Shown here one piece after another: positions 55,095-60,587 of a DNA stretch of 64,000 bases; the first letter of the stretch is position 1, and each line of letters starts with the position of its first letter. Location: positions 1 to 64,000 of the forward strand of contig NZ_JACGVG010000036.1 of NCBI RefSeq assembly GCF_014077095.1, read 5' to 3'. The notes under the pieces are model-generated. The model ran no database searches. It worked only from the letters and a program-made list of their open reading frames with translations, and was not told where the DNA came from. A program made the position numbers and the translations under genes. This DNA is from Colwellia sp. MB02u-6. Lineage in GTDB: Bacteria > Pseudomonadota > Gammaproteobacteria > Enterobacterales > Alteromonadaceae.

Positions 55095-56735
55095 CTAGTT
55101 TAATTTTTGCCATTTCAGTGTTAATTCGTTAAGCGTTGCCAGGCCTTTACCCGCAAAATTTAGCGTTGAAAGTACAGCGAGAATACCCTCTACTGACACC
55201 CGATGCTCAGGTGTGTCCTGATCTTCTTGCTTAATTTTTATCAATATTTTTAATTGGCTAAACAGTAATTTGACATTATTTGGACTCAGTTGTAATGCTT
55301 GTTGAATGGCCTTTAACGCCGGTAGTAATCGATGCTTATGAAAGTGCTCAACCGCCATGCGGTTAAGTTCTTTGGCAGTAAAGTGTATCTCTTCACGCTG
55401 TTGACTTTCTTGCGCTATATAATGCCTAACCACTTGGCTATTTAACGAATTACCAGCAATTTGATTATTGATGGCTTCAAGTAATTTTATTGCCTCTTCA
55501 CGCATACCTAACTCATGCAATACTTTCACCCGATCTAAATTATCCTCTACTACTTTGCTGGGTATAAGCGACATATGATTTTCAACTAATTTTATCGCTT
55601 TAGCTTGTTCATTACGGACATTGTGTAACCTAGCTTTAACCACTAATAGTGGTTGTTTAAAAAGGCTCACATCTTTGCAGACATGCTCAAATTGTGTGAT
55701 ATAACGATCAGTTTGCCGCAATAATTCATTGGCACTGTCATCTGGAGTTGCACAAGCAAGATCAATACCCGCTCTGATCACATTCAGTAAAAGTTCGGGG
55801 GAGTCATGAATTGAGTTTTTCGCTTGTTGTGCTATGTTGCGCGTCGCTACATATTGTCCTTTATAATCATGAGTTAAGCGGGCTAAATCCCACGACTTTC
55901 TATTACGTTCAATATTTCTTGGTGCCAATGCCATGGCTTTTTTAATTTCTTCATAGGCCTGTTGGTATTGTTCTTGTTCGATGAAATACTGCGCCATCAT
56001 ATCGTGGGCACCAAAACGTGTGTCTGGCTTATCAATCAAGGTGTTTATCATATCGCTAATTTCACCCAAGCGACCTTGCTTTAACAAAGATTTCGCATAG
56101 CCTAAATACACCCACGAGTATTTATAGGTTTTAAATAATCGGCGATAAAAAGCTTCTGCTGTTTCAAACTCGAGCAAGGAAAGATATGACTCACCTTTAA
56201 TGCGGTTAATATTAGGATGATAATGGGCTAACTTTTCATTTTGCAGGTGTCGATCAGCAAAATAAAGTGCTTTGGCGTAGGCTTTTTTGTCTATCGCATT
56301 GTTGATATTAAAAAGTACTTGCTTGACCTTTAATATCGCGATGAAGCGGGTTCTCACTTTTTTTATCGCTAACGGTTTTGTCCAAAAGTCATCGGGTTGC
56401 AACTCGATGATAGAGTTTACTAAAGGTTCATTGGTTTCTGTACTGAGGAATATTAATACCGTAGTTTTAGTTACATGGCCTTTAAATTTCAATTCTTCTA
56501 ATAAGTGAAAACCGTCTTTGTCGCTTTGAATGTTAAAGGCGCAAATAATAATATGAAAATACATTTCATCGCACAACCTAAGACCATAATAAGCATTTTG
56601 TACACAACGCACTTCCTTTATACCAAGCGCGAATAGGGTTGTTTTTAAAACGCTGTGTACGAGCAGGTTATCGTCGATAACTAAAACATTAAGTTGATCA
56701 AGTTGCGCTAAGGTATTTTTTTCAACATCTTGCAT
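55095..56735 (-). CDS. Receiver-TPR protein with a missing phosphoacceptor
   Basis: A 546-residue protein. Residues 15-135 are a response-regulator receiver with the acidic pair Asp21-Asp22 ('LVIDDN') and the conserved Lys in 'DDFWTKPL', but the phosphate-accepting Asp is replaced by Ala66 in 'IIICAFNIQSDKDG' (relatives have CDYN). The remaining 400 residues are TPR-like helical repeats, with no DNA-binding domain. It should work through protein contacts without the usual phosphorylation. It is the last gene of an operon with a DUF1289 gene and a large kinase-like gene that also lacks its phosphate sites. Confidence 0.85.
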   Translation of the reverse strand: MQDVEKNTLAQLDQLNVLVIDDNLLVHSVLKTTLFALGIKEVRCVQNAYYGLRLCDEMYFHIIICAFNIQSDKDGFHLLEELKFKGHVTKTTVLIFLSTETNEPLVNSIIELQPDDFWTKPLAIKKVRTRFIAILKVKQVLFNINNAIDKKAYAKALYFADRHLQNEKLAHYHPNINRIKGESYLSLLEFETAEAFYRRLFKTYKYSWVYLGYAKSLLKQGRLGEISDMINTLIDKPDTRFGAHDMMAQYFIEQEQYQQAYEEIKKAMALAPRNIERNRKSWDLARLTHDYKGQYVATRNIAQQAKNSIHDSPELLLNVIRAGIDLACATPDDSANELLRQTDRYITQFEHVCKDVSLFKQPLLVVKARLHNVRNEQAKAIKLVENHMSLIPSKVVEDNLDRVKVLHELGMREEAIKLLEAINNQIAGNSLNSQVVRHYIAQESQQREEIHFTAKELNRMAVEHFHKHRLLPALKAIQQALQLSPNNVKLLFSQLKILIKIKQEDQDTPEHRVSVEGILAVLSTLNFAGKGLATLNELTLKWQKLN

Positions 56736-56766
56736 GATTTACCTTACTGGCTATGATCTTAGCCTG

Positions 56767-56973
56767 CTACTTTCCATATTGTAGTTGACGTTGTTGGCAC
56801 TGGTTAAGTACCTCTTTTTTTGCCGCGACATCAAGCTGGCGCCATGTCATAATTTCATCAATATTGCGAAAGCAGCCTAAACAAACATCGTCCTCATTTA
56901 GGCCACAATGACTTACACAAGGACTAACAATATCTTTAACTTTGTCTTTTGACTGGTAGTATTGAACACTCAT
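56767..56973 (-). CDS. DUF1289 family small cysteine-rich protein
   Basis: A 68-residue protein with four Cys in the family pattern 'SPCVSHCGLNEDDVCLGCFRNIDEIMTWRQL', probably binding zinc or an iron-sulfur cluster. The function is unknown. It overlaps the large kinase-like gene upstream by 4 bp and is 31 bp from the receiver-TPR gene, so all three are one operon. Confidence 0.9.
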   Translation of the reverse strand: MSVQYYQSKDKVKDIVSPCVSHCGLNEDDVCLGCFRNIDEIMTWRQLDVAAKKEVLNQCQQRQLQYGK

Positions 56974-59900
56974 ATCGCTTCTGCAAATTCAGTTAACTGT
57001 AATAGACATAGTTTGAGGTGATTTAACTGACGTTGCAATGCCTCTTTTTCTAGTACTGAAAAAGAGGCATTTAACGCTTTTGGGCTAAGCAATTGACTTA
57101 ACTGTCGACATTGCGCCAATAAAGGTCTGGCAGCAATAACATTAGCTAAGGTAGTTAACGACTGTAACAGCGCTAAAGCGAGGCGGTAGTCTTGCGCCGC
57201 TAGTGCCGAGCTTAACGCTTGGAGATTGGTGCTAATGTCCACCAAATATTCATCTAACATATAAGCGGCTAACTCAGCAGAGCCTTGATTTTCTGCGTAT
57301 TGGTTTAAATCCAAAGCCTCTGCTGTTGATTTATTTATTTGCTCAAAGCCAAAAGAGAAGTCTAACGACTGCTCAATATCCGCCATATTCAATACTTGCT
57401 CACCAGTCACATTGCTCTTGTCAGGTACAGAATTTGGTATGGCCGTGTACTTATTATCTTGCTTACTTAGCGGTGGGGCTAATATGGCTTGATTTTCACC
57501 CGTGCCTGCAGCTGACTTTAACCAAGGAGATAATTGCTGAATTAATTTTTGAATATCTAATATTGGAGCTAAATAGCCACTATGCCAAGACGTTGGTAAG
57601 TTAAATTTATCGAAAAAATCGTCTGACTTATCCTTATTATCGCTCAAAGCAAACAGGCCACGAACAGAAGTTAATGTATTATTAATAGTACTATTAAAAC
57701 TGGAAAACTCATAAATAGCCACTAAGTAACGCCCTGACTGCCATAAGTTTTCGAGCTGTTCTTGTTGAGAAACCACAGTCACCTGTAAACCAAGCCAATG
57801 CAATATTCTCAGTAAAACTTGGTGTTTACTGGCCATGATCACACCAAGTAAAACTTCAACTTGGCTAGGTATAAAACGATAAGGTGAGAAAATCTCTGGC
57901 TCAACTAATAAGTTAATCTTGTTGTTATTACTTAACAACGCAATAATATTGGTGATTAACTCACCGGAAAACCAAGGTAAGTTACTGGCTGAAAACAACC
58001 CTGCTCGTTGTAATGTAGTACAGTTAACTGGCTGAATAACTAATATTTTAGGTTGTATTTTAGCCGGTAAACTCGCCAAGTGTTGGGTGATCAAATCATA
58101 ATCTGAAAAGTAGACTTCAGGCGATAAAACAATCACATCCAAGCGATACGTCATTAGGTGTTTTATACTCATTTGGCGACGAAATAGTGACAAATCTTGC
58201 ATTGTTTCCACTGTAGCTTTGCTGTGGCCGAGTTGATGACAAATTCTTTCGCGGCTAACTTTGTCAGTAGCAATAACTAAAAGTGCACACTTGGTTAAAT
58301 TTATTTGCTGGTTTTCGCTAGTTTTATTCAACTCTTCAGCAATGGTTAACGAACACTCAAAAGAAAATTTTCCAGCCGATTCTAACAGTTGACTAGCTTT
58401 ATTACTGACATTAAAAACCAACTGCAAATCTCGTAAATAATGCTCAGTAGTATGAGTAAAGTCTGCCGTTATTTCATCATCGAACACTAACTCGTTAATC
58501 ACCTGAGATAGCCTCTGTGCATCAGATGGCTTATTAAGCAAAAAGCTTATCTGTACAGTTTGTTGGCCGCTATTTATGTCAATCACTTGCAAAGCAATAT
58601 CAAGCTCAGCACCCCGCTGCTCCGTCAGTATCTTATGACATATTGTTGCTATCATGGCCTGAAAAAATTCACTTTCAAGTGTCACCGAAGAGGCTAAATT
58701 CTCTGCCATATGCAAATAAATGCAGTTGTTACTTTGCGCTACAGCCAAACTCACATTAGCTAAAACTGTATGCATTTCATTAGCAAGTGTTACCCTAGAT
58801 AAGGTCAAGACAAAGTCGTTTAGACGTAATTGGGCACAGGTTTTTTGTTGTTCACCCCAGCGCGCTAATTGACGTAATTGCTGGTAGGCAAGTTGTTCGT
58901 CACCCTGAGTGATGGACACTAACTGCCTTTGTAGCATTACGCTATTCACTAGCTCTGACGCTTTGTCGCTACGGGTAATAATAGCGAGTTTATCTGCTTG
59001 GTTTTGCTGTTTAAGTTGTTGTTGTAACTGTGCATTACTATCTTTAAGCACTTGATGTTCTTCTGCATTAGCTAAACTGCCACACCACAGGCCACCAATA
59101 TATTCAAGCGTTAAAGCCAGGGCTTTTTCTTGATTGCTCATTAACGAAATTTTTTCAACACTCTGATGTTTTTTGGCGTGTCGCGCAAGAGACAAAATAG
59201 CCCGAACATCTGCCCGACTAAAGCACTGACGCCAATGTTGAATGTTAACGTTAACACCGAATAAGGCTGACAATTGTTGTTGCTTTTCTGACCGCAAAGG
59301 CATTTGCCAAAAAACAACCCCACTATGACGAGACATAAATACTATTTGCGTTTGGTATTCTTGCTGCTGTTGTCTGAAGTCGGCTTCACGATGTAAAGGT
59401 TGAGACAGTTGCTTAATAGCATTAAGCGTTGCTGTGACTTCAAGCCCAGGTATTTTTGCTACCACGTTACCTGTAGTCACAAACTCTTTAACGACAGCGA
59501 CACTTTGTCTACCAAAGTATTTAATTTTTCTTCGTAAACTGAAAAGTAAACTGATAAAAATCAGGCTGAGTAAAAGAAAAACACCGGTAATAAGCCAAGT
59601 GTAATGCTTAGGCTGCACGTCAATATTAGCTTTTACCAACCATGCGAAGAACTGTTGTTTGATAAGCGATGGTTTAATGGGTTGCACGACAATTGTATTA
59701 TCAAGTAAGGGTATTAGCTCAGCTTTCTGTTTTATTAGTTCAGCTTTCAAGTCATCTACCCTGCGTAATTGACCACGCCACTTTGCAAAAGTGTTTTGCT
59801 CACTAAACAGCAGGGTATTAAGCACTGATATTTGTTCAACCAAGCCTTTTTCATTTAAATTTTTATTCATCACATTACTGGCATTTGCCAGCCAACGAAT

Positions 59901-60587
59901 TATATCGCGTTGAATCTCTTGCTGAATATAACTAAATTCGACTAAATCATACTGTAAATCAAGTTGGTTAAACATCACTAAAGTGTCCATGATACCTTGA
60001 TGCAACTCACGATTAATATTTAAGCTATTTACTAAGTTACTTAATGCCTTCGCCCGTACGCTAATTACCTTCTGGGTTAAGTTGTTTTGGCTGATTTGAC
60101 GATATAAGTCATTTTGCTGACTTATTTGCTCGGCGATTAAATGAGATAAACTATCCGTCACTAAGAGCAATTGAATAATAACACTATCTTTAAGTTGAAG
60201 GTTTCGTCGAGTACTTTCAGTTAAGCGCGTGACATTTTCTGCCTGCGTCTTTAAACGCTGAGTTAACTGCGCTAATAACCACTTATTGTTTTGACTTAAC
60301 GCAGAAATTTTTTTTAAGTTTTCACTCAGCATTTGATAGCTTTCATCAAATTTTAGCGCCGACTTACTGTCGAGCAAATCATTGAGTAAGCGATTATTTT
60401 TAATTAACAACAATTGTCGTTGATGCTGCTGTTCAAGGGCCGGCAATTGTTGATATTTAACTAGCGCTAAATCTTGTTCTGATTGAAAGTACAACCAAAA
60501 CCCCAGCAAAAAAAGTAAGGAAAAGCTCAAAGCCAATAAAAAAAATTGGCGACTAAGCTGACGATATAGCGGCAGTGTTGAATCCAT
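56970..60587 (-). CDS. Large hybrid-sensor-kinase-like protein without catalytic residues
   Basis: A 1205-residue inner-membrane protein. Helices at about 14-34 and 328-352 enclose a helical periplasmic sensor. A PAS-like segment (about 410-510) and a coiled coil follow. Where a histidine kinase should have HExR, there is 'ELVNSVMLQRQLVSITQ', without His, and the ATP-binding part has no clear N or G boxes. A receiver-like domain ('CALLVIATDKVSRERICHQLG' to 'YRLDVIVLSPEVY') lacks both the acidic pair and the phosphate Asp. The C-terminus resembles an HPt domain, but the His position is Gln1142 ('LLQSLTTLAN'). I read it as a pseudo-hybrid kinase, perhaps a signalling scaffold. It overlaps the DUF1289 gene by 4 bp. 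Confidence 0.8.
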   Translation of the reverse strand: MDSTLPLYRQLSRQFFLLALSFSLLFLLGFWLYFQSEQDLALVKYQQLPALEQQHQRQLLLIKNNRLLNDLLDSKSALKFDESYQMLSENLKKISALSQNNKWLLAQLTQRLKTQAENVTRLTESTRRNLQLKDSVIIQLLLVTDSLSHLIAEQISQQNDLYRQISQNNLTQKVISVRAKALSNLVNSLNINRELHQGIMDTLVMFNQLDLQYDLVEFSYIQQEIQRDIIRWLANASNVMNKNLNEKGLVEQISVLNTLLFSEQNTFAKWRGQLRRVDDLKAELIKQKAELIPLLDNTIVVQPIKPSLIKQQFFAWLVKANIDVQPKHYTWLITGVFLLLSLIFISLLFSLRRKIKYFGRQSVAVVKEFVTTGNVVAKIPGLEVTATLNAIKQLSQPLHREADFRQQQQEYQTQIVFMSRHSGVVFWQMPLRSEKQQQLSALFGVNVNIQHWRQCFSRADVRAILSLARHAKKHQSVEKISLMSNQEKALALTLEYIGGLWCGSLANAEEHQVLKDSNAQLQQQLKQQNQADKLAIITRSDKASELVNSVMLQRQLVSITQGDEQLAYQQLRQLARWGEQQKTCAQLRLNDFVLTLSRVTLANEMHTVLANVSLAVAQSNNCIYLHMAENLASSVTLESEFFQAMIATICHKILTEQRGAELDIALQVIDINSGQQTVQISFLLNKPSDAQRLSQVINELVFDDEITADFTHTTEHYLRDLQLVFNVSNKASQLLESAGKFSFECSLTIAEELNKTSENQQINLTKCALLVIATDKVSRERICHQLGHSKATVETMQDLSLFRRQMSIKHLMTYRLDVIVLSPEVYFSDYDLITQHLASLPAKIQPKILVIQPVNCTTLQRAGLFSASNLPWFSGELITNIIALLSNNNKINLLVEPEIFSPYRFIPSQVEVLLGVIMASKHQVLLRILHWLGLQVTVVSQQEQLENLWQSGRYLVAIYEFSSFNSTINNTLTSVRGLFALSDNKDKSDDFFDKFNLPTSWHSGYLAPILDIQKLIQQLSPWLKSAAGTGENQAILAPPLSKQDNKYTAIPNSVPDKSNVTGEQVLNMADIEQSLDFSFGFEQINKSTAEALDLNQYAENQGSAELAAYMLDEYLVDISTNLQALSSALAAQDYRLALALLQSLTTLANVIAARPLLAQCRQLSQLLSPKALNASFSVLEKEALQRQLNHLKLCLLQLTEFAEAI

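Follow-up and report, generated by a model that had tools for sequence, protein, structure and literature searches.

We found that a gene in a 64,000-nucleotide stretch of DNA from Colwellia sp. MB02u-6 (contig NZ_JACGVG010000036.1, positions 1 to 64,000; hereafter the window) encodes what is very probably a transmembrane pseudo-hybrid-kinase. Judging by its sequence and by structural models, this protein of 1205 residues, here called KL, derives from a TorS/GacS-like tripartite histidine kinase, has kept the folds, and no longer runs a phosphorelay. KL belongs to a set of three tightly spaced minus-strand genes flanked by queG and orn; the other two encode a small DUF1289 protein, whose start overlaps the KL stop by 4 bases, and, after a gap of 31 bases in the window, a receiver-TPR protein, RR-TPR. 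An earlier interpretation of this DNA, made from the letters alone (the sequence-only reading), had described reading frames of 1205 and 546 residues with a DUF1289 neighbour, and their coordinates were confirmed. The three genes and the parts of their products are as follows.

56970..60587, minus strand: KL gene, pseudo-hybrid-kinase of 1205 residues (open reading frame, orthologues, purifying selection)
60486..60548, minus strand: TM1, transmembrane helix, KL residues 14-34 (hydrophobic stretch in a model helix, by eye)
59673..60443, minus strand: periplasmic TorS/HBM-like helical bundle, KL residues 49-305, holding Lys269-Trp270 (Foldseek and VIA)
59538..59603, minus strand: TM2, KL residues 329-350 (hydrophobic, in model helix 326-372, by eye)
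59388..59531, minus strand: putative HAMP-like helical linker, KL residues 353-400 (assigned from a helix-loop-helix in the model)
59067..59321, minus strand: predicted PAS-like domain, KL residues 423-507 (alpha/beta segment of the model; several relatives lack it)
58827..59072, minus strand: DHp-like helical hairpin without conserved His, KL residues 506-587 (model, GacS alignment, alignment columns)
58341..58799, minus strand: CA-like ATPase-fold domain with N, D and G boxes lost, KL residues 597-749 (model, fold matches, alignment columns)
57930..58286, minus strand: receiver-like domain 1, KL residues 768-886, Ser822 at the phosphate position (model; inside the ShkA alignment)
57519..57863, minus strand: receiver-like domain 2, KL residues 909-1023, Glu960 at the phosphate position, no acidic pair (model)
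56976..57311, minus strand: HPt-like four-helix domain, KL residues 1093-1204, Gln1142 at the His position (VIA matches)
56767..56973, minus strand: DUF1289 small Cys-containing protein, 68 residues (PF06945 match, E 4e-19)
55095..56735, minus strand: RR-TPR, receiver-TPR protein of 546 residues (open reading frame; PF00072 match at E 7e-11, plus TPR)
56328..56693, minus strand: pseudo-receiver of RR-TPR, residues 15-136, Ala66 at the phosphate position (sequence alignment)
55197..56210, minus strand: TPR region of RR-TPR, residues 176-513 (Pfam and NCBIfam TPR matches in this range)

In searches with its sequence, KL matched nothing above cut-off in Pfam or NCBIfam (best E 0.02 and 0.12, respectively), found no relative among solved structures, and went unnoticed when its own genome was searched with Response_reg, Hpt and HATPase_c: none of the 52, 8 and 37 matches, respectively, fell at the KL locus. 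A KL profile gave weak HPt and receiver matches to solved structures, with a best E of 0.1, and when 28 KL members were scanned against Pfam, four had weak Hpt matches (best E 0.003) and no kinase domain was among the matches listed (25 of 53 families). One KL member had a Response_reg match at E 0.015, below cut-off.

The architecture emerged from AlphaFold2 models of residues 505-1205 (mean pLDDT 80, falling below 50 in the linker 1029-1089; 44 sequences) and 1-530 (pLDDT 83; 43 sequences). In the first model, a DHp hairpin and a CA domain are followed by two receiver-like domains and a C-terminal HPt bundle. Its top Foldseek match was ShkA (E 2.6e-12), to which VIA aligned 333 residues at 4.8 Å (Z 14.5, model positions 27-466); against GacS, VIA aligned 244 residues of the DHp/CA part (model positions 1-246) at 4.2 Å with Z 18.2. 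The HPt-like domain superposed on the Shewanella HPt 3myf over 110 residues at 2.4 Å (Z 15.2) and on the BarA HPt 3iqt (Z 13.7); it carries an NQGS motif at 1100-1103, and an HptB profile aligned to it at E 0.1. The DHp, CA and HPt folds are thus present in tripartite hybrid kinase order, in agreement with the outline proposed from the sequence. Because the fold matches cover mainly DHp-CA and HPt, the receiver folds between CA and HPt rest on the strand-helix pattern of the model, on the range of the ShkA alignment and on weak profile matches (5uic at E 0.18, 7c1j at E 0.87). In place of the single receiver-like part of the sequence-only reading, the model has two such domains. In the model of residues 1-530, the periplasmic part forms a helical bundle with TorS sensor domains as top Foldseek matches (E 1.6e-4) and VIA Z scores of about 15 for PilJ and TorS. 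Since PilJ and McpS folds score like TorS, and helical bundles easily score high, we claim the TorS/HBM class only.

To count the phosphate and ATP sites we used 44 KL sequences; KLs of 800 residues or fewer were excluded from alignments A2 and A3, and the locus L163 was also left out of A3. The columns of the H-box and of the N-, D- and G-boxes were placed by eye from model ranges and motif patterns, with the help of published His numbers. Every residue that defines a working tripartite hybrid histidine kinase was lacking in KL: the His, the ATP boxes, the receiver Asp with its acidic pair, and the HPt His. Along the DHp stretch 533-552, His occurred in at most 4 of the 44 sequences at any column. 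The first N-box column held Asn in 9/44, the D-box region 678-689 held Asp in at most 7/44, and GxG was found in the G-box stretch of none (0/44). At the phosphate position of receiver 1, no sequence had Asp (Ser 16, Ala 10, Thr 7, Gly 5, His 1, gap 5); at that of receiver 2, Glu was found in 30, Asp in 9, Gln in 2, and Asn, Gly and Met in one each, and the acidic pair was absent from all 44. HPt position 1142 was variable, with Gln in the window and His in only two relatives (L137 and L139), whose neighbours in the queG tree (L064, L136 and L138) lack it.

A column-by-column check of the alignment for an overlooked canonical residue turned up none, and orthologues with canonical residues, which would have made the window protein a case of decay, were looked for and not found in the 44 sequences. 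Because the loss of sites is common to the relatives, it is not a local decay of the window KL. The claim of the sequence-only reading that all acceptors are gone thus held for the H-box, the ATP boxes and the HPt His, which it had correctly placed at Gln1142; for the receivers it needs qualification, as receiver 2 keeps Glu960 while the acidic pair is missing.

Other columns of KL are strongly conserved. The CA-like domain contains a DxNxGQQ turn (KL 670-676, window 58560-58580) that is kept far better than any classical kinase box, with D670 in 40, N672 in 37, Q675 in 43 and Q676 in 40 of the 44 sequences, and Arg976 of receiver-like domain 2 is found in 43/44. Towards its end, the periplasmic domain has a Lys-Trp pair, of which Trp270 was invariant in 43 sequences and Lys269 present in at least 90% of these; this motif (window 59778-59783) is, as read from the alignment, a possible ligand or signalling site. 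In the HPt-like domain, eight positions of the motif at 1093-1114 were conserved in 27-29 of 29 sequences.

We then compared which parts the relatives keep, using a table of domain coverage for 60 KL rows that includes the short forms and L163. The HPt-like domain was covered at 88-100% in all 60 rows and was the sole domain kept in all. Three genera have short KLs of 525-611 residues, six in all (L106, L162, L207, L208, L209 and L219): one in g5, one in g126 and one in each of four g137 genomes. These retain TM2, the HPt-like domain and 85-99% of the periplasmic part; coverage drops to 23-32% for DHp, 8-24% for CA and 0-5% for the receivers. They sit between queG and orn or beside queG. L142, whose KL is truncated where its contig stops, was not counted among the short forms, and L219 comes from one genome of 800 contigs. 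The figure of three counts genera and not proven separate events; we infer that the kinase-receiver core was lost rather than gained. Other KL lineages lack the PAS-like domain or receiver 1. The 884-residue protein at L163:7256-9910 retains DHp, CA, both receiver-like domains and HPt, with 7% of the periplasmic domain covered. In genome G072 (L106:6813-9614) the short KL is located behind a HemY gene (PF07219), and in G311 (L157) the genes behind KL are similar in length to those in G072, so that KL may adjoin a heme operon in these two genomes.

Both long reading frames are under purifying selection, in keeping with the selected system that had been proposed. The ratio of nonsynonymous to synonymous substitution (dN/dS) of KL against four congeners was 0.275, 0.244, 0.216 and 0.210, and that of RR-TPR 0.06-0.13; with 0.03-0.07 for orn and rsgA, KL evolves faster than these neighbours. 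Its loosest parts were the linker 1027-1083 (0.26-0.93), the TM2 region (0.16-0.48) and the PAS-like domain (0.18-0.41). The value for DUF4442 in L086 was undefined, the wrong reading frame having been matched. A full-length open KL frame was present in 17/17 genomes of the genus, its own included, and the named relatives found for KL were those of Colwellia sp. MB3u-45 (90%) and C1TZA3 (82%). Across the order, a single-sequence search found KL in 8/295 genomes. A profile search matched 28/394, of which ten matches were strong (E <1e-10) and all from the same GTDB family, whereas the remaining 18 were short and of low significance, the best at E 5e-8. A tree built on queG placed the KL genomes in one clade of 63 rows (support 98/99), 60 of which have KL; the other three had none in the stretch fetched. 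Many of these loci and rows were selected for a known KL or RR-TPR match; KL turned up in 8 of 20 queG neighbourhoods taken from genomes in which none had been known. KL thus has a kinase fold, has lost its activity as read from its residues and is still under selection, as is expected of a pseudo-histidine kinase.

The operon neighbour RR-TPR also lacks its own phosphate site. The sequence-only reading had noted Ala66 there, and we found Ala or Ser in 57/57 close relatives, the window included (32 beside KL, 25 without KL nearby). The receiver Lys is kept in all 57 and the acidic pair in most, and the window protein has both. Elsewhere in the order, at 30 loci of other families, this position was Asp in 27, Glu in 2 and Ala in 1 (L177, a 55%-identical close relative). 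Since the close relatives have Ala or Ser without exception and the others mostly Asp, the subfamily probably lost the receiver Asp a single time, and for good. One genome with an Ala/Ser RR-TPR (G031) had no KL match at all, and the genes next to RR-TPR at 16 loci that have no KL nearby gave no lead. Conversely, of 60 KL genomes (the window, 16 congeners and 43 others), 32 have RR-TPR in the KL operon, 10 have it at another place and 18 have no visible orthologue; the search scored four candidates per genome, and two of the genomes (G330 and G343) are only 80-85% complete. On these 18, within the four candidates scored per genome, we reject the idea that KL and RR-TPR are obligate partners.

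The gene order told a similar story. By script, DUF1289 was next after KL at 48/59 KL loci (49 with L085, whose DUF1289 was missed by the distance rule) and absent as a neighbour at 10/59, RR-TPR followed KL at 31/59, and the order KL-DUF1289-RR-TPR was found at 30/59 (31 with L085), in six genera; queG was convergent with the KL operon at 58/59. The sequence-only reading had proposed a selected operon without phosphate sites. Selection was borne out; that the three genes form one system was not supported, with 18/60 genomes showing no RR-TPR orthologue, 10/59 loci no DUF1289 neighbour and 25 RR-TPR loci no KL nearby. Its 'scaffold' role, and metal binding by DUF1289, are putative functions. 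At L157:1727-3256, a 509-residue protein with Sel1-like repeats (by eye) lies between KL and queG, in the slot that RR-TPR has in Colwellia.

Several known systems resemble these proteins in part. TorS shares with KL a helical periplasmic sensor fold and, presumably, the domain order sensor-TM-DHp-CA-receiver-HPt; KL differs in its lost phosphate and ATP motifs and in its additional PAS-like and second receiver-like domains. The plant pseudo-HPt AHP6 has an HPt fold without the His, is soluble, has no sensor and acts inside a working phosphorelay; KL shares the His-less HPt fold and is predicted to be a membrane sensor. Pseudo-receivers (PsR) resemble RR-TPR in keeping the receiver fold after losing the Asp; in the present case, the HPt-like and kinase-like parts next to it are siteless as well. 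A limited literature search found no paper that names the KL family.

RetS and DivL, the latter called a pseudo-histidine kinase (PMC9430884), are like KL in having a degenerate kinase core that serves regulation, and RetS also has two receivers; RetS, however, retains the receiver Asp858 and a phosphatase motif (PMC5992135), whereas KL has no canonical site, and its core is absent in some relatives. The Caulobacter hybrid kinase CCNA_03265 is said to be without the conserved His and, unlike KL, keeps the receiver Asp (PMC11481889). VieB, of the Vibrio cholerae VieSAB system, combines a receiver with TPR in an operon with a hybrid kinase, as RR-TPR does, and its unphosphorylated form is the active inhibitor (PMC4352251). 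The two are likened here by domain make-up; VieB keeps Asp62, and RR-TPR has Ala66. VieB binds the hybrid kinase VieS and is as inhibitory in its D62A form as in the wild type (PMC4352251), so that a receiver without Asp can be an active regulator.

We propose that KL probably signals by shape and binding, not by phosphorylation. The periplasmic bundle, of the TorS/HBM type and present in nearly all KLs, would sense a signal and bring about a conformational change through TM2, and the C-terminal HPt-like domain would dock a receiver-type partner without phosphate transfer, this docking being the output. We give about even chances to the explanation as a whole, in which KL is a pseudo-hybrid-kinase with its His-less HPt domain as the essential output; that this output is binding of a receiver-type protein through the HPt-like domain is a proposition that could go either way. 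In lineages without the kinase-receiver core, the sensor and the HPt-like domain alone would do the job. In Colwellia, the likely docking partner would be RR-TPR, whose receiver should not be phosphorylatable at the usual site, and the pair might hold or release clients of the TPR region or restrain a genuine kinase; we put forward this partnership and its role tentatively, as something short of an even chance. Less likely still is that an entire multi-step phosphorelay was turned phosphate-free, a His-less HPt docking on an Asp-less receiver and the old phosphotransfer interfaces serving as protein switches; we regard this as unlikely.

Several observations weigh against this proposal. Glu or Asp is kept at the receiver 2 phosphate position in 39/44 KLs, and receiver-like domain 1 has partly conserved His residues (H836 in 32/44, H810 in 25/44) that match no canonical site. 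The columns invariant in all 44 long KLs (L913, G933, W949 and W1022) lie in receiver-like domain 2, so that this domain matters where it is present. The profile matches that back the receiver folds are weak (E 0.18 or more). L163 lacks the periplasmic domain, and the sensor is therefore not kept by all KLs. Finally, the 18 KL genomes without a visible RR-TPR orthologue (best E weaker than 1e-50) would leave those KLs without this partner.

Four other explanations were weighed. RR-TPR and KL could be mere neighbours, RR-TPR being an independent VieB-like regulator placed in the KL operon to be expressed with it. The 25 Ala/Ser RR-TPR loci without KL nearby and the 18 KL genomes without RR-TPR favour this, against which stand the recurrence of the three-gene order in six genera and the 31-base gap in the window; we consider it a serious contender, if somewhat below even. 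Alternatively, the DHp-like helices of KL might pair with a real hybrid kinase and alter its activity in a dominant-negative manner, as RetS does on GacS or DivL on CckA. Most KLs keep the DHp/CA fold, with RetS, DivL and GacS among the closest folds; the host genome has 37 HATPase_c matches, and L163 retains the kinase core without the sensor. RetS itself, whose ATPase domain is degenerate, down-regulates GacS (PMC5992135). However, RetS keeps its phosphate-receiving Asp, while in KL no site is accompanied by its helper residues, and the six short KLs have been retained at queG/orn in three genera without CA, both receivers and most of DHp, which makes this explanation rather improbable.

The same short forms lack the DxNxGQQ and receiver 2 regions, and so argue against a KL that is catalytic or binds a ligand in a new way, with the turn, or the receiver 2 Glu/Asp together with Arg976, as a different site. 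Conservation of D670, N672, Q675, Q676 and R976 does exceed that of any classical kinase motif in the 44 KLs, but with GxG in none and the N-box Asn in only 9, we think such a site very unlikely. Least credible of all is that the two proteins, KL and RR-TPR, are slowly decaying relics. The dN/dS of KL (0.21-0.28) is well above the 0.03-0.07 of orn and rsgA, and several KL lineages miss domains; nevertheless, purifying selection acts over its domains, W270 is invariant in 43 sequences and the HPt-like motif is kept. We reject decay of KL because of its dN/dS and its retention as a full-length frame in 17/17 genus genomes.

Sites are missing in 0.9% of HisKA, 0.9% of Hpt and 2.0% of sampled receiver domains, and how bacterial pseudo-receivers are switched was called a mystery in the same source, a 2025 review (PMC12632262). 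Single pseudo-receivers and pseudo-kinases are already known; here, one conserved protein has no site in working form, and its operon neighbour RR-TPR is also without its own. As far as its sequence and those of its relatives tell, KL is different from known pseudo-kinases in that no site is left working and some relatives have no core at all. The natural series of KLs (full; without PAS or receiver 1; sensor plus HPt; one without sensor) is a ready experiment on which parts are essential.

Beyond the three genes, two further features were recorded on the orn side of the locus.

61450-60953: DUF4442 gene, upstream of KL, as is orn
61800-61783: terminator-like hairpin, 3' of orn (a kind of site hardly commoner here than in shuffled sequence)

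Promoter-like sites showed no excess over shuffles (11 against 23.8), and terminator-like sites a slight one at most (8 against 5.4). In genus g11, a protein of 176-187 residues, membrane and coiled-coil-like by eye, lies between DUF1289 and queG (L154:2674-3204 and L176:9173-9736). In genome G052 (L171:1999-4224), a GGDEF-EAL-like protein of 741 residues (by eye) replaces KL between DUF1289 and DUF4442.

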